Assembly: GCA_035461765.1 (NCBI GenBank) | Contig: DATHUY010000108.1 | Span: forward strand, 1-61,952 | From: Longimicrobiales bacterium | Lineage (GTDB): Bacteria > Gemmatimonadota > Gemmatimonadetes > Longimicrobiales > RSA9 | Length of the DNA: 61,952 nt | Reading direction: 5' to 3' | Part shown: positions 4,069 to 10,801 of the stretch, one piece after another | Position numbering within the stretch: position 1 is the stretch's first letter | Layout of the letters: each line of letters begins with the position of its first letter | The notes under the pieces: model-generated | The model's input: the letters and a program-made list of their open reading frames with translations, nothing else | Told to the model about the DNA's origin: nothing | Databases searched by the model: none | Program-made: the position numbers and the translations under genes

Positions 4069-4455
4069 CTATGGATGGATCGAGTTGCTGTCCGTCGCCG
4101 GCGCCACCAGCGACGACTGCGGCGTCAGCTCCGTGACACGCTGCATCGCCGAGTCCGCGGCGGCGACGTTGCCGAGCTGACGCTCGACCATGGACAGGCC
4201 GAACCAGCCCGCTGATTCCTCCGGGGCCAGCTCGATTGCGCGCCGGTACTGATCGCGCGCAGCGTTGTAGTCCTTTGCGCGGAACGCGGCATTGCCGCTG
4301 TCCAGTGCCGCCAGCACGTCCTGCGGGAGCTCGCGTGCCGCGCGCCAGGCCGCGGAATCGATGCTCCCCGTCGCCTGATCGTCGCGCAACCCTTCATCCC
4401 CGCGGCATGCGGCAAGGACGAGCAGCGCCACCATCGTCACACCGATTCTATTCAT
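4069..4455 (-). CDS. Small lipoprotein with TPR-like repeats
   Basis: A 128-residue protein. A signal peptide (MNRIGVTMVALLVLAAC) ends in a lipobox, so it is a predicted lipoprotein. The mature part has a tandem helical pattern of TPR type (ALDSGNAAFRAKDYNAARDQ, then SAGWFGLSMVERQLGNVAAA), about two repeats. The start ATG at 4455-4453 overlaps the TGA of the upstream 16-haem cytochrome by one base (TGATG). A GGAGG with 5-nt spacing precedes it, so translation is coupled. As the last gene of the cytochrome operon it may act as an assembly or docking factor for the conduit; that role is inferred from position only. Confidence 0.8.
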   Translation of the reverse strand: MNRIGVTMVALLVLAACRGDEGLRDDQATGSIDSAAWRAARELPQDVLAALDSGNAAFRAKDYNAARDQYRRAIELAPEESAGWFGLSMVERQLGNVAAADSAMQRVTELTPQSSLVAPATDSNSIHP

Positions 4456-6104
4456 CACGTCCTCCGGTTCAACGGATCTGTAATGTGGCACACCAGGCAG
4501 ATGGCCGCGTTTCTCTTCTGCGCGCGGCGCGCATCGAAGCCCTCACCGTGCGGATTCACCTTGAATGCGCCCAGCACGGAATGGCACTGCATGCACTCGG
4601 GCTGCGTGTGGCACGACGTGCAGCTCTCCAGCCCCTGACGCGCCGCCTGACCGTGCCGCAGCAGCCAGAGCGGCTCTGCGTCATGGAATCCCGGGCCGAG
4701 CCGGCCGGTAGTTGCGCCGGGGCTCATCCCCGCCGACTCGTGACAGTCCGCGCAGAACAGCCGGCTGTCATGGCAGTTGGAGCACTCCAGCCGCCGACCG
4801 TACGCCTCGGCGGAATGTCGCGCCATGAAGTTGGCGGGGTGGAACGCTCCGGGCCTGTCGCCGCGGCGCGTGTCGGTCGCGGCCGCCTGCCTCGCGTTCG
4901 CGCGGCTGACGTTGTCAGTCCGCACTGCAACCTGCTCAGGGCCGTTGAGTCGTCCCCGCGTGTTCGCGTGCACGTCGAACGCAACCGCGGCGTGCGGACT
5001 CGCGCCAGCACCGCTCAGCGCCGTACCACCGGCGGCGGCATTGTGGCAGTCGGAGCAGAACGTGCGCGTATGACACGCACTGCACGATGCGCTGCTCGCC
5101 GCCGCCACGTTGCCGTGATCGATCTCGAACAGCGGCGCCTGGTGTGACTGGGGCGCGCGCCGCATCACCTGGACACCCGGCGCGCGCACATCCGCACGCG
5201 ACCTGAGCTGGGTCACGACCGCCGGCTGCTCAGGCGGCAGGTGACATGACGCGCAGTCTTCCTGCGTGTGGCACGTCGCGCACGACGCCGTCGATGCGCC
5301 CGCACCGTGGTTCTCCATGAAGTCCGGCGTCAGGTGCGAGGGCGGCACCGGGTAGCGCGCCTCGAACTCCGGCAGCGACTGCGCCACCATGCCCTGCGCG
5401 GCCGGCATGCTCGCAATGGCATCCACTCCGGCCGCATCCACGTGACAGCTCTCGCAGCGCTCGCGCGTGTGACACACCGCGCAGCGCGTGATGTCGGCGT
5501 TCGCCAGCTCGCCGTGCGACTCCGCGAGGAAGTCGGCGAGGTCATGGTCCACCGGCTCCGGCAACGCGACCAGTCGCGCACGGTCGAACGGTGCTTCAGC
5601 GAGCGGAATGTGGCACGTCTCGCAGTCGGCATCCACGAAATGATCGGTCGCCTGATGCTCGTGGCAGGCGAGGCATCGCGGCACGACGGGCCGCTCGGCG
5701 ACGGACATGCGCGGAGCACCGGCGGGCGTATGGCAGGTCGTGCAGTCGATCGCAGCGCCCTGCTCATCCACATCCGGATGGTCGGGGTGCTCGAAAGCCA
5801 GGTTGTCCGGCTTCTCGGTCGGACCGTCCCACTCCACGCGCGGCTGCTCCACGCCGTCGTGACAGCCTGCGCATTCGGCGGGCGCCGGGTAGAATTCCGA
5901 GCGGTCGCCTTCCGGCACACCCTCGTGGCAGCCTTCGCACAGCGGGAACAGTCCCGCATGCTCCTCGTGCGGGAACTCCTGCTGCCGCTGAGCGACGGCC
6001 GCGAAGACCACGCCGACGATGGCGACGACGCAGAGGAGCCAGGCACGGCGCAGCATGCGCGTGTTCATTGCGGCCGCGGCGCGGCGCAGCATGCGCGTGT
6101 TCAT
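4455..6104 (-). CDS. 16-haem periplasmic c-type cytochrome
   Basis: 549 residues with 16 CXXCH haem-binding motifs spread through the whole length (for example CEGCH, CAGCH, CTTCH, CESCH, CASCH, CADCH, CLVCH). An N-terminal hydrophobic segment (WLLCVVAIVGVVFAAVA) serves as a signal peptide or anchor, so the protein is exported. The start at 6104 is supported by the ATGA overlap with the preceding barrel gene. A second possible start is ATG at 6068, because a 23-bp segment is duplicated 36 bp apart and repeats MNTRMLRRA twice. It presumably shuttles electrons in the periplasm, or inside the barrel like MtrA/PioA decahaem proteins, although it is longer and has more haems. No catalytic signature of a nitrite or hydroxylamine enzyme was recognised. 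It is translationally coupled on both sides. Confidence 0.9.
   Translation of the reverse strand: MNTRMLRRAAAAMNTRMLRRAWLLCVVAIVGVVFAAVAQRQQEFPHEEHAGLFPLCEGCHEGVPEGDRSEFYPAPAECAGCHDGVEQPRVEWDGPTEKPDNLAFEHPDHPDVDEQGAAIDCTTCHTPAGAPRMSVAERPVVPRCLACHEHQATDHFVDADCETCHIPLAEAPFDRARLVALPEPVDHDLADFLAESHGELANADITRCAVCHTRERCESCHVDAAGVDAIASMPAAQGMVAQSLPEFEARYPVPPSHLTPDFMENHGAGASTASCATCHTQEDCASCHLPPEQPAVVTQLRSRADVRAPGVQVMRRAPQSHQAPLFEIDHGNVAAASSASCSACHTRTFCSDCHNAAAGGTALSGAGASPHAAVAFDVHANTRGRLNGPEQVAVRTDNVSRANARQAAATDTRRGDRPGAFHPANFMARHSAEAYGRRLECSNCHDSRLFCADCHESAGMSPGATTGRLGPGFHDAEPLWLLRHGQAARQGLESCTSCHTQPECMQCHSVLGAFKVNPHGEGFDARRAQKRNAAICLVCHITDPLNRRT
6046..6104 (-). repeat. Tandem duplication of a cytochrome start region
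   Basis: Two identical 23-bp copies (6046-6068 and 6082-6104), offset by 36 bp (12 codons), each carry an ATG and encode MNTRMLRRA in frame. The gene therefore has two equivalent starts. Confidence 0.8.
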
Positions 6105-7564
6105 CGCATGCCCTGCGCGGTCATGCCCGGATCGCGGCCGAAGCCGACGCGGAGCGCCGCCCAGCCGCGCACCTGGTTCCAGTCGGTGTCGCCGACGCGA
6201 CGTTCCCACGTCTGGCGATACACGTGTGCGCCGCCGCTCAGCTGTGCGAACGATGTGACGTCCACGTCCACGGATCCGCCGCCGCCGAGTACCACGCCGT
6301 TACCGAGGCGGAACTCCTCGATCTGCTGGAACGCTGTGACGTCGGCATTGAGCGCCACGCGCTCGTGCACGCGGAAGCGCGCGCCGACATCACCCGACCC
6401 GAGATAGGCGCCGAAGCCGCGTTCCATGCGGTAGCTCGCATCGAGCATCAGGCGCGGCGACGCAGTCCATGCCGCCGCGGCCGTGACGGAGACGGCATCA
6501 TCGGGCAGCGGGTCGAAGATCACCGGTGCATCCGCATCGTCATACTTACGGTAGCCCACCGCACCGCGCACCTGAAGGGCGGGCAGCGGACGCCACGCAG
6601 CGCGCGCCTCGACCTCGTGGTGCGCGACGGGGCTGAAATAGCCCCAGATAGTCCACAGCTCGAAGTAGGGTACGTAGCGCGACCCGGCCAGCTCCAGCAC
6701 GAGGCCGCCATCGCTCACCGGCAGCCGCAGGTTCAGATTGGACTTGCCGACGCGCCCGAACGCAAAGTCGTAGTCCATGCCCGCGGTGATGTGCACGGGC
6801 GCGAGCACACTCGAGCGCAGATCGAGTGACGCGCGCTCCGACACCAGCGCGGACCGGTTCGTCCACATCTCCCGCTGATACCGCGCCGTCACGCTCGTAT
6901 GACCCCAGGGCTCCGCCTCCATCTCGCCGCCGATCAGCAGCGCGTTGCGATCCGGGAAGAACTGCTCGATGCCTGCGAGTGCCTCGTGGCGCGGCTCGTA
7001 CACGCTGCGCGCGAGACTCCTCCCGCCGAACAGCTGCACGCTCAGACGCTGCGTCGGCGCGTACAGCACCTGCCCGCCGTCGTAGCTCGTGAAGCCGAGA
7101 CCGGACAGGCTCTGGAGACGGCCGCCGCGCACGCGGAAATCGCCGCGCAGCAGCTCGGCATACGCGAGGATCGCATCGAACGGATCATCGCTGCGCGGCC
7201 ACTCGAAATCACCGCCGAGATCCGCGCGTGCGCGGAGCTGCACGGTGGCGCTCAACCCCTGCACACCGAGCCCCCACGCGGTCATGCCGACGTCCTGCGT
7301 CAGCATGATCGCGCTCTGCTTGCCGACGGCGCGGTAGCGCAGGCAGTGAACCTGAGGAATGCACGAGATCGGCAGACCTTCGTACAGGAACGAACCGTTG
7401 GCCAGCTCCTGCACCGCGGAGATCGGCACGGTATCGTGGGTGATGGGTCGCAGCTCGTAGTAGCGCGCCATCGTGACAGCCGTGCCGCGCATGCCCTGCG
7501 CAGCCGCCGGTCCGGGCAGCAGCAGCGCAAGCGCCGCCATCGCCGCCATGCCGCGTGCGGTCAT
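6101..7564 (-). CDS. Outer-membrane beta-barrel protein of the cytochrome operon
   Basis: 487 residues with a signal peptide (MTARGMAAMAALALLLPG, cleavage near AAA-QG). The rest is a run of amphipathic strands with alternating aromatic and polar residues (for example LSVQLFGGRSL, HTSVTARYQREMW, VALNADVTAFQQ, VRGWAALRVGFG). This is the texture of a barrel with roughly 20 strands. The start at 7564 is chosen from the signal peptide and the ATGA overlap with the preceding cytochrome gene; the longer frame upstream is non-coding. It sits between two multiheme cytochrome genes, which suggests the MtrB/PioB role of a porin sheath that brings a cytochrome through the outer membrane. I see no clear sequence signature of the MtrB family itself, and the barrel is shorter than MtrB. 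The barrel call is moderately sure; the partner role is inferred. Confidence 0.75.
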   Translation of the reverse strand: MTARGMAAMAALALLLPGPAAAQGMRGTAVTMARYYELRPITHDTVPISAVQELANGSFLYEGLPISCIPQVHCLRYRAVGKQSAIMLTQDVGMTAWGLGVQGLSATVQLRARADLGGDFEWPRSDDPFDAILAYAELLRGDFRVRGGRLQSLSGLGFTSYDGGQVLYAPTQRLSVQLFGGRSLARSVYEPRHEALAGIEQFFPDRNALLIGGEMEAEPWGHTSVTARYQREMWTNRSALVSERASLDLRSSVLAPVHITAGMDYDFAFGRVGKSNLNLRLPVSDGGLVLELAGSRYVPYFELWTIWGYFSPVAHHEVEARAAWRPLPALQVRGAVGYRKYDDADAPVIFDPLPDDAVSVTAAAAWTASPRLMLDASYRMERGFGAYLGSGDVGARFRVHERVALNADVTAFQQIEEFRLGNGVVLGGGGSVDVDVTSFAQLSGGAHVYRQTWERRVGDTDWNQVRGWAALRVGFGRDPGMTAQGMR

Positions 7565-9285
7565 TCGACTCGCTCCGCCGCTGCCGCGACCCATGACGGC
7601 GGTGTCGATGCCGGGGCGGGACCCGTCGCCTGGCGCGCCGCGGGCAGCGCGTGACAATCCACACACCGCCGGCCCGGCTGATGGTCCGTCATGTCCTGGT
7701 GACAGGACAGGCAGAGGCTGCGTGTGCGCTGCGCCGCCGTGACCGGTGCGGGCGAGTGGCAGCCCGAGCCCGCGCACGTCAGATGTGCCGTGGCCGTGTG
7801 CGCGGACGAAGCCGGTGTCTCGTGACAGGCCAGACAGTTGTTGTCCGGCTCGTGATGCTCATCGTGGCAGCCCTCGCAGCTGACGCGCGCGGCGCTCAGC
7901 TCCAGGCCCTGCACGTGGCAGCGTCCGCAGTCGATATCGTCATGCGGCCGGTGGTCGAACGGATACGTGCGGTTCTCGGCGCGGCCTACGCTCGGCCGGA
8001 ACGCGCGCCGCACACTGTAGCGCTCGGATGAGACCGCGGCGGGATCGTGGCAGCGCGAGCATGGCTGCATCGTCGAGCCCGTGTGGTGACACGACCGGCA
8101 GTCCTGCACCGTGGTGGTGGTCACCTGCCCGTGGGTGTTCTCGACGCTGTGACAGGCCGTGCACTCCACGTCCGTGTGCCGCGCGTGGTCGAATTGCAGC
8201 GGGAATGCGGGCCGGGTCTGTTGCGCATGCGCCGGAGCCGGCAGGAACAGACGGCCGAGGACCCGCAGCACACCGTCACCGAGCGACGTGCGCGGCGGCG
8301 CGTGCGGGTTCGGCGCCGGCGTGGGCGGCGTGCGCAGCGTCGGATCCGTATGACAGTCCCGGCACTGCCGTCCTTCGGCGTGGAAGCTGTGTGCCGAATG
8401 GCACCGGCCGCATGTCTCGAGGACACCGGCGCCCAGGCCGCGGTGGAACGGCGTCAGCGTGTCGGGCTGCATGTGGCAGTCCGTGCACGCATTGAACGCA
8501 TCGCTCGACTGCGCCTGGTCGTGCGGGTTGTGGCACGACGCGCACATGCCCGCATGCGGATCCGCCTCCGCGGGCGGGAAGTCCGCCAGCCGCACCTGCA
8601 TCGCGTGGCAGCTCAGGCACTGTTCCCGCTGCGGGTGGAATGCCAGCTGGACGGAGTCTCGCTCTTCCGCGGCGACCTGCGCGTTGAACGTGTGACACGT
8701 CGCGCAGTGGATCGTCAGGTCGCCCATCGCGCCGAGCTGGATGTTCTGATTCTCGTGGCATCCCGCCTGGCCGCATGTCTGCTCGGTGGCGGCGAACTCG
8801 TGGACGCTCGTGGAATGACATTCGACGCATTTCAGTCCGGAAAGCGCCGGGTCGTCCGATTCCAGGTGCACCCGGTGCCCCGCGGACGCCGCTACGTTGC
8901 TCCACTCCTCCGGATCGCCCTCCACGTGACACTCGACGCACACGTCATTCGATACTTCCGCGTGCGCCTCCAGACTATCGGGATTCTCGATGATCTGCGT
9001 CAGCGCCATCGTGCTGCGCGTCACGAGCGTCGGCTGGTGGCACGACTTGCACCCGAGATCGGCGTGCGCGCTGCGCGCGAACCGCTCGTAGGGATCCACC
9101 ATCAGGTGGCAGGAGAGACAGAAATCGTTGTCGTGCTGGACGTAATCGTATGTGCGGTAGGCTTCCACCCCGCCCCACACCAGCAGAGCCGCGAGCACCG
9201 CGCCCAGCCCCACCAGCAGTACCGGTGGAACCTGGCGCAGTCGCTCGCGCGTGCGTCGCAGCATGCCTGGACGTCTATCGTTCAA
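7561..9285 (-). CDS. Membrane-anchored NapC/NirT-like multiheme cytochrome c (about 20 haem motifs)
   Basis: 574 residues. One N-terminal membrane helix (about 18-42) is followed by a NapC/NirT-like start: FCLSCHLMVDPYERFARSAH, then CKSCH. I count 18 CXXCH motifs plus two CX4CH motifs (CGQAGCH and CAGSGCH), so up to 20 haems. A Pro/Ala-rich linker with a second hydrophobic patch near residue 340 divides two haem-rich halves. NapC-type proteins oxidise menaquinol or ubiquinol and hand electrons to periplasmic cytochromes; this very long version could be both the quinol-facing and the bridging part. The start is ambiguous: TTG at 9285 or ATG at 9264. The stop overlaps the barrel gene start (ATGA). 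A 61-bp gap separates it from the 9-haem lipoprotein gene upstream. Confidence 0.88.
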   Translation of the reverse strand: MNDRRPGMLRRTRERLRQVPPVLLVGLGAVLAALLVWGGVEAYRTYDYVQHDNDFCLSCHLMVDPYERFARSAHADLGCKSCHQPTLVTRSTMALTQIIENPDSLEAHAEVSNDVCVECHVEGDPEEWSNVAASAGHRVHLESDDPALSGLKCVECHSTSVHEFAATEQTCGQAGCHENQNIQLGAMGDLTIHCATCHTFNAQVAAEERDSVQLAFHPQREQCLSCHAMQVRLADFPPAEADPHAGMCASCHNPHDQAQSSDAFNACTDCHMQPDTLTPFHRGLGAGVLETCGRCHSAHSFHAEGRQCRDCHTDPTLRTPPTPAPNPHAPPRTSLGDGVLRVLGRLFLPAPAHAQQTRPAFPLQFDHARHTDVECTACHSVENTHGQVTTTTVQDCRSCHHTGSTMQPCSRCHDPAAVSSERYSVRRAFRPSVGRAENRTYPFDHRPHDDIDCGRCHVQGLELSAARVSCEGCHDEHHEPDNNCLACHETPASSAHTATAHLTCAGSGCHSPAPVTAAQRTRSLCLSCHQDMTDHQPGRRCVDCHALPAARQATGPAPASTPPSWVAAAAERVE

Positions 9286-9346
9286 CGATTACCCACTTCA
9301 ATGGCTGGCAGCGGGCGCCGCGACGCACGGCGCCCGCTGTCTCTGG

Positions 9347-10801
9347 CTAGTTGTGCTGGCCCAGCTGCCGGCTCAGCGATACGCCCGGCGCCGCGAGGCC
9401 ATAATCTGTCCGCACCTGCTGGATCGACGCAATGAGCAGGGCCTCGATCAGGAACGGATTGTGAACCGCCGACTCCGGGAAGCTGTTGATCAGCTGGTAA
9501 TTGAACCTGGCTCCCTCGGCCGTGCTGTACCGCCCGTCATTGGCATTGAACTCCGAGGCCGGGATCTGCGCGATCAGCGTGTTCAGCTGCGCAGCGAGCG
9601 TGTTGAGACGCTGCGTCGCGACCTGCTCCAGCGAACGGGCGACCGCCTCCGAGCCGTGGCAGCCCGCGTCGGTGCAGGTCTTGTATGACTTCTGGGACGA
9701 GGCGCAGTCGCCCGGCACCGGCACGCCGTTCACCATGCACGGCGTGGCCGCGAACATGTGACCGACCGAGAAGACCTGCTCGCCCGTCAGCTCGTCCGTG
9801 GTACTGAACGCGTTCACGTGGCAGCCCGCGCACAGCTTCGGATTCGCGACCGACCCATGCGTCGCTGCAATAACCGACGTGTCGCCCGTGCCGGGGAACT
9901 GCATGTTGGGGGGCCACCAGCCGCCGTAGCCGAGCAGCACCGGGCCCTCCGGCGAGTGCGGTCCGCGACTCTGCGAGGCCAGGTCCGGCGTGCCGCGCTT
10001 GTGATGGCACTTCATGCACAGGTTCTGCTCTTCGTTCGGCACGTCCACCGCGTAGCGCAGCTGACCCTCGTTGTCCGCCGAGTGCGGGTCGTGACACACG
10101 CCGCACGTGATCGCCAGATGCTGGCCCGGCTGCGACACACTGGCCTTTTCCAGATAATCGGCATTCTCGCCCCAAGCCACGAGCGCGCCCTCACCCGTGT
10201 GGCAGCTCTCGCATTCCGGTCGGCCCGCCGGCGACGCGAGCGCGGCGCCGTGCCCCGACTGCTCCCACTCCTCGACGAACGGATGGTGCGCGCCCTGGTG
10301 GCATTCGCCGCAGCCGATCGTCAGGTCGGTCCCGACAGCCAGCGGCGCCAGCGGGATCGTCGCATCATTCGGGTTCTGCACGTGCGCCAGTCCCGGACCG
10401 TGACAGCTCTCGCACTGCACGTTGTGGTAGCGTTCGTCACCCGTGGTCGCATAACCGCCGGCCGCGGTCGCCAGGTTGCCCAGCTGATTCACCGTGTGGC
10501 AGTTCTCGCAGAACGCCTGCGCGTGACCGCTGCCCTGCAGCGTCGCCCATGCATCCGCGTGCGCCGTCTGCTCCCACTCCCCCTGGAAGCTGACGTGGCA
10601 GTTGCCGCACACCGTCAGGTTCGTCTCCTGGTTCGTCAGGCCGACGAACCCCTCATGCCCGGTAGGAACGTCACCGACCAGATCGCGATCACGGTATACG
10701 ATTCGCTCGTCCACGCAGGCCGTGCCGAGGACGAGCATTACTGCCGTGATCGCCATGAGCGCATGCTGCGATATCCTTCTCATGTATCCCTCGTCTCTCA
10801 T
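9347..10801 (-). CDS. Nonahaem c-type cytochrome lipoprotein
   Basis: About 484 residues with a lipoprotein signal (ALMAITAVMLVLGTAC). It contains eight CXXCH motifs (CGNCH, CENCH, CESCH twice, CGECH, CGVCH, CMKCH, CAGCH) and one CX4CH (CTDAGCH), so nine haems are likely. Repeated blocks such as EWEQTAHADAW and EWEQSGHGAAL resemble the haem-ligand spacing of cytochrome c554/NrfB-like modules. The C-terminal 100 residues lack haems and look helical. It is the first gene of the minus-strand operon. The start at 10801 has GAGG 5 nt upstream; a near-identical second start (ATG at 10783) follows 18 bp later. As a lipoprotein it could be the surface-exposed terminal reductase or the periplasmic donor to it. 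The substrate is unknown. Confidence 0.88.
   Translation of the reverse strand: MRDEGYMRRISQHALMAITAVMLVLGTACVDERIVYRDRDLVGDVPTGHEGFVGLTNQETNLTVCGNCHVSFQGEWEQTAHADAWATLQGSGHAQAFCENCHTVNQLGNLATAAGGYATTGDERYHNVQCESCHGPGLAHVQNPNDATIPLAPLAVGTDLTIGCGECHQGAHHPFVEEWEQSGHGAALASPAGRPECESCHTGEGALVAWGENADYLEKASVSQPGQHLAITCGVCHDPHSADNEGQLRYAVDVPNEEQNLCMKCHHKRGTPDLASQSRGPHSPEGPVLLGYGGWWPPNMQFPGTGDTSVIAATHGSVANPKLCAGCHVNAFSTTDELTGEQVFSVGHMFAATPCMVNGVPVPGDCASSQKSYKTCTDAGCHGSEAVARSLEQVATQRLNTLAAQLNTLIAQIPASEFNANDGRYSTAEGARFNYQLINSFPESAVHNPFLIEALLIASIQQVRTDYGLAAPGVSLSRQLGQHN

Follow-up and report, generated by a model that had tools for sequence, protein, structure and literature searches.

A five-gene minus-strand operon in a G+C-rich contig from a Longimicrobiales bacterium (phylum Gemmatimonadota; contig DATHUY010000108.1, a stretch of 61 952 nt referred to below as the window) very probably encodes a trans-envelope electron conduit, whichever way the electrons flow. 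That the conduit runs outward, from quinol to an acceptor outside the cell, is in our assessment also probable, with a smaller measure of confidence. The best reading is that of a known kind of machine with an outer-membrane barrel family of its own, well supported and broadly distributed. A larger proposition seems to us evenly balanced between true and false: that the operon represents a separate line of outer-membrane conduits common to Gemmatimonadota and Calditrichota, where a single operon would specify 45 haems as an unbroken wire leading from quinol to the surface with no soluble periplasmic carriers, and where, around a fixed pair of barrel and cytochrome, lineages would have exchanged the module in the inner membrane and the means of attachment to the surface (lipid or type IX secretion).

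All five open reading frames (ORFs) of the operon (4069–10801) were confirmed. Given in the order of transcription, their products are a nonahaem lipoprotein with the lipobox LGTAC (c1, 9347–10801), a 20-haem cytochrome with a NapC/NrfH-type anchor (c2, 7561–9264), a 22-strand outer-membrane beta-barrel with an arginine-rich lumen and no haem motif (6101–7564), a 16-haem cytochrome with a signal peptide (c4, 4455–6104) and a tetratricopeptide-repeat (TPR) lipoprotein (4069–4455; Pfam TPR_16, E 4.9e-11). The 45 haem motifs of the operon comprise 42 CXXCH and 3 CX4CH; c1 has eight of the former and one of the latter, c2 has 18 and two, and all 16 in c4 are CXXCH. ATGA overlaps join c2 to the barrel gene and the barrel gene to c4, while c4 and the TPR gene share a TGATG overlap. 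A preliminary description, made from the sequence alone, had reported these five genes, about 45 motifs (about 20 of them in the NapC-like protein) and overlaps linking the last four genes, and these particulars were borne out. Cytochrome c assembly genes are present. Such an arrangement is far beyond what chance would produce: every one of the 16 c4 motifs is conserved without exception in 32 homologues, and the same gene order is found in different families.

The barrel was the part of the proposal on which a failed prediction had been set beforehand to count against it, and the prediction holds. In the AlphaFold2 model (predicted local distance difference test, pLDDT, 82; predicted template modelling score, pTM, 0.73) a signal peptide is followed by 22 long strands, each showing the hydrophobic/polar alternation of an amphipathic strand. 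The lumen face contains 17.8% arginine and 0.7% lysine. Near-invariant sites are concentrated on this face (25 of 146 positions, versus 7 of 142 on the lipid face; Fisher p 0.001), with no significant difference between the two faces in mean entropy (p 0.14). No Pfam or NCBIfam model matched the protein, and a profile built from 28 homologues had no match among PDB sequences. As modelled, the protein is an outer-membrane barrel of a family new to the Pfam and NCBIfam libraries. Because haem-rich sequences match one another easily, homology was argued wherever possible from this haemless protein.

Within Gemmatimonadota, c4 is adjacent to and co-oriented with the barrel gene in 61 of 61 testable loci; the co-occurrence of barrel and partner cytochrome, also named in advance as a point of possible failure, was thus seen at all loci of sufficient length. 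A script found c4 directly downstream of 58 of 63 barrel ORFs; of the other five, two are cut by a contig end, and in three c4 is read within a longer ORF that overlaps the barrel gene and was missed by the distance rule. The number of haems in c4 is 16 in 47 of 54 complete copies and ranges from 9 to 18 in the rest. In the alignment of 32 c4 proteins the 16 motifs are invariant, and so are a further 16 histidines, a number equal to that of the haems; the script also flagged H371, which was discounted, its column being a gap in nearly all sequences. An initial scan of the collection with c4 as sole query gave no matches, and a search for plasmid relatives of c4 found none. We regard c4, the constant partner of the barrel, as the predicted wire through or under it.

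The barrel was detected in 38 of 146 genomes of near relatives (25 of 59 genera) and, across Gemmatimonadota, in 117 of 395 genomes (67 of 138 genera), with matches confined to the class of the window organism save for one borderline case (E 1e-5). Outside the phylum, a Calditrichota metagenome-assembled genome (MAG) carries a weak barrel homologue (locus L086, E 1.5e-5) adjoining a 14-haem c4 homologue, and 12 of 82 genomes from the phylum of this MAG have barrel homologues. All 14 distant-phylum barrels, those of L086 and L207 included, adjoin a c4 homologue, which has 12–14 haems where complete.

The first cytochrome of the operon, c1, is predicted to be a terminal cytochrome at the cell surface. 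Its profile matched the PDB entry 6qvm (E 6.8e-18 over 365 residues), titled ‘Multiheme cytochrome cf’, which we take to be OmhA of Carboxydothermus ferrireducens, and 6i5b (E 3.8e-11), presumably the nonahaem structure of OcwA from Thermincola potens. The former protein was sheared off the cell surface and is present on biogenic magnetite (PMC7829351); the latter is the surface terminal reductase of its host (PMC6703420). The homology of c1 extends over the haem domain, and OcwA likewise has nine haems; unlike c1, which is a lipoprotein encoded in a conduit operon, both proteins come from Gram-positive hosts with neither outer membrane nor barrel. Among 27 homologues of c1 the lipobox cysteine (Cys29) is nearly invariant, and the nine motifs are accompanied by nine invariant extra histidines. 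Matches of c1 and c2 to DmsE-like and MtrC-domain models fell below the curated cut-offs; such an identity was rejected for both proteins and the scores were treated as generic haem-motif similarity.

A further indication comes from the distant barrels. All six complete c1 homologues encoded beside them (loci L086, L217, L219, L222, L224 and L225), which are nonahaem proteins, end in a type A sorting domain of the type IX secretion system (T9SS) scoring over the NCBIfam cut-off. These tails place the c1 family at the cell surface, where in one phylum type IX secretion would take its members and in the other, to judge from the lipobox, attachment through a lipid. The true start of the window c1 is probably the ATG at 10783, as close relatives start there.

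The 82 bp between c1 and c2 contain a perfect hairpin (9309–9339, minus strand) with 11-bp arms and a 9-nt loop, which may set the expression of c1 apart from that of the remaining genes. Strong GC-rich hairpins of differing sequence and with no T-run occupy the same gap in six other loci (L005, L036, L040, L042, L043 and L049).

The N-terminus of c2 has a membrane helix and the motif FCLSCHLM as in NapC/NrfH; the protein scores 26.1 bits against PF03264 (NapC/NirT; cut-off 24.1) and shows similarity to TIGR03153 (NrfH). Its 20 motifs are accompanied by 21 extra histidines, and the first motif has the invariant form CXXCHXM found in NrfH. The anchor and this first motif are shared with NapC, NrfH and CymA, although classical members are small proteins of four or five haems, whereas c2 has 20 and a separable 9-haem module. 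On these features c2 is an extended relative of NapC/NirT and not a classical member. Since its halves (N-terminal, 11 haems; C-terminal, 9 haems) occur as separate genes in homologous loci, c2 is either a fusion of two modules or a protein split elsewhere.

In other homologous loci the quinol position is taken by a cytochrome b/Rieske pair with a 9-haem cytochrome, sometimes adjoining c2; at L201 the genes for Rieske protein, cytochrome b, c2, barrel and c4 form a single run. On a tree of 58 barrel sequences the presence of a NapC-type gene requires at least nine changes on well-supported branches, a count inflated by contig edges. As far as gene neighbourhoods tell, the invariant core is the barrel with c4, usually plus c1, and c2 and the other quinol modules are interchangeable. 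The preliminary description was thus right in the number of genes, while its picture of five genes as a unit gives way to one in which c2 can be exchanged. Two loci have proteins of ∼950 amino acids with 19 haem motifs adjoining the barrel and Rieske/cytochrome b genes (L187, 10766–13621; L200, 11222–14095); in addition, the L187 protein contains a cytochrome b561-like membrane domain (PF01292).

The mechanism that we propose would run as follows. Anchored in the inner membrane, c2 would oxidise quinol with its NapC-like head and carry electrons across the periplasm on its 20 haems to c4, lying as a 16-haem wire in or against the barrel. From c4 the electrons would pass to c1 on the surface, which could reduce an extracellular acceptor such as humics, another cell or an oxide of Fe(III) or Mn(IV). 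A role in assembly or docking is probable for the TPR lipoprotein. Where relatives have the Rieske/cytochrome b pair with its 9-haem cytochrome, this set would replace or supplement c2 in oxidising quinol.

The same conduit could also be read in the opposite sense, as taking electrons from Fe(II) or some other donor outside the cell and delivering them to a periplasmic reductase or the quinone pool, given that NapC-type and cytochrome b modules are reversible in principle. For a paralogous conduit of the same genome (contig C83, described below) such a flow is plausible, since the NapA-like molybdoenzyme set encoded downstream would fit a use of nitrate to oxidise a donor outside the cell; the window operon, however, has no such molybdoenzyme. 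The kinship of c1, a surface-type lipoprotein cytochrome, with OmhA and OcwA of Fe(III) reducers points outward, and oxidisers of the MtoAB/PioAB type have no extracellular cytochrome (PMC5566968). Inward flow in the window system is, on balance, unlikely.

The outward conduit resembles MtrCAB of Shewanella and MtoAB/PioAB in having a barrel, a multihaem wire and a surface cytochrome (MtrC in Shewanella), fed by a NapC-family quinol dehydrogenase (there CymA). Differences are that the quinol dehydrogenase is encoded within the operon and has 20 haems versus four in CymA, that c1 is of the OmhA/OcwA type and that the barrel has 22 predicted strands versus 26. The barrel did not match PF11854 (MtrB_PioB), nor did any protein of the window genome, and c4, with 16 haems and thus not a decahaem protein, did not match TIGR03508 (DmsE/MtrA-type). 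Judged by sequence, the conduit is not a member of the MtrAB/PioAB family. Three genomes of the same family as the window genome (G004, G006 and G009; loci L180–L182) encode classical MtrB/PioB barrels with PF11854, and G004 and G006 have the new barrel as well.

PCC3 and PCC4, proposed whole-envelope conduits of Fe(II) oxidisers, also combine a porin with large multihaem proteins (PMC5566968). They are marked by a five-helix inner-membrane protein with two HX13H motifs, a gene for which was not found in the window operon. PCC3 has median haem numbers of 34 and 21, in contrast to 9, 20 and 16 here, and PCC4 has no extracellular cytochrome; judged by gene content, the conduit is neither. Quinol modules close to conduits have precedents: a recent cave survey recorded NapC/NirT, ImcH or bc1 genes near conduits and bc-type partners near some of them (PMC13264449).

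There is a parallel in composition with Geobacter, where a porin-cytochrome conduit is recognized by a periplasmic multihaem cytochrome, a barrel and a redox lipoprotein (PMC6148476). The window operon, with c4 as the periplasmic cytochrome, the 22-strand model as the barrel and c1, which has a lipobox and nine haem motifs, as the putative redox lipoprotein on the outer membrane, may for that reason be called a porin-cytochrome conduit. OmbB-OmaB-OmcB and ExtABCD, ExtEFG and ExtHIJKL likewise have the three components in one cluster; as described, they differ in haem numbers, in gene order and in the quinol module built into the window operon. The suggestion of the preliminary description that the operon may be a distinct class stands with respect to MtrB/PioB, by sequence, and PCC3/PCC4, by gene content, and is tentative with respect to the Geobacter sets. 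The window system could be a divergent, unrecognized member of the Omb/Oma/Omc or Ext families, a kinship compatible with either direction of flow. In the Ext conduits a 12-haem periplasmic cytochrome goes with a barrel of 18–21 predicted strands (PMC6148476), and haem numbers vary within the window conduit family too (9–18). Against this, the barrel matches no Pfam or NCBIfam family, and the gene content differs by the 20-haem NapC protein in the operon and the OcwA-type nonahaem cytochrome; we hold the kinship to be unlikely. An additional independent line is plausible, since separate origins are already accepted for Mtr, Omc and Pcc (PMC12133095).

Least likely of all is a periplasmic system standing beside an ordinary porin, with c1 as the reductase of a soluble compound: OcwA is structurally akin to multihaem enzymes of the N and S cycles (PMC6703420), and weak matches link c1 to cytochrome c554 and octahaem nitrite reductase, but the barrel never occurs without c4 in testable loci of Gemmatimonadota or the distant phylum, related c1 proteins bear a surface-secretion tail and every haem has a candidate conserved distal histidine.

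Several observations weigh against the outward conduit that we favour. For c4, AlphaFold2 gave a poor model (pLDDT 63) without a PDB match, too weak to lend structural support to the threading of c4 through the barrel. Foldseek matched the barrel model to generic porins and ushers, MtrB included, with every TM-score <0.5; as the matches are to outer-membrane barrels in general, the likeness to MtrB is not specific. The surface position of c1 in the window organism is suggested by homology and the lipobox. Histidine conservation in c1 and c4 would fit wires with bis-His ligation throughout, and none of the cytochromes looks like a soluble reductase, which had been named as contrary evidence; OcwA, however, has open sites at haems 2 and 5 although its sequence has enough histidines (PMC6703420), a precedent by which such conservation is not proof. 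Computation established the gene order, the motif counts, the barrel fold, the pairing of barrel and c4, the homologies and the exchange of modules; the passage of c4 through the barrel, its contact with c2, the surface site of c1 in this organism, the direction of flow and the acceptor are deduced.

The window genome carries two related operons. One, on contig C32 (L004), is a copy 94% identical, with the same downstream genes and an inserted COX1 (cytochrome oxidase subunit I, 4555–6225); it is probably from a second strain within the MAG and not a true duplicate. The N-terminus of the window c4, MNTRMLRRAAAA MNTRMLRRAWLL, is a tandem duplication of ∼12 residues ahead of the signal peptide. 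A diverged form of it is retained in the C32 copy; it is absent from L035 and L036, and therefore the true start of c4 may be in the second repeat. The other operon (C83; L005, 7631–19006) is a second conduit, 34% identical, with c1, the 9-haem C-terminal half of c2, a barrel and a 16-haem c4, followed by the NapA-like molybdoenzyme (677 bits, below the NapA cut-off of 904), two cytochromes, an iron–sulphur protein and NrfD. Up to three further loci (L059, L067 and L069) share some of these surroundings.

The TPR lipoprotein had seemed rare in the initial ORF clustering, a result overturned by tblastn: homologues were found in 29 distinct homologous loci, many immediately 3′ of c4. Near-identical barrels were observed in genomes assigned to different families, f1 and f6 (L054, 325–1893; L195, 9871–11439), reflecting either recent transfer or MAG contamination. 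A Myxococcota cluster (L206, 5534–13914) encodes a 24+1-haem protein, a barrel-sized ORF, a 13-haem c4-like protein and a c1-like protein; the barrel profile did not recognize the barrel-sized ORF, and the cluster is possibly a further conduit type. An uncultured bacterium (L090, 6160–15866) has clustered genes for a NapC-like 18-haem protein, a c1-like nonahaem protein, a barrel-sized ORF and an 11-haem c4-like protein.

An aerobic way of life was reported for the first member of Gemmatimonadota to be cultured. We found no description of this conduit family in Gemmatimonadota in the open-access literature; one CbcL-type and two ImcH homologues have been listed for the phylum (PMC6295460), and the MHCscan survey makes no mention of the phylum in its main text (PMC11475568). 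A conduit present in about half of the sampled genera would make Gemmatimonadota candidates for electron exchange with minerals, humics or other species. The 20-haem c2 together with the 16-haem c4 raises the testable idea of a wire across the whole envelope, and a fixed core of barrel and c4 with swappable quinol modules offers a ready test of how conduits evolve.

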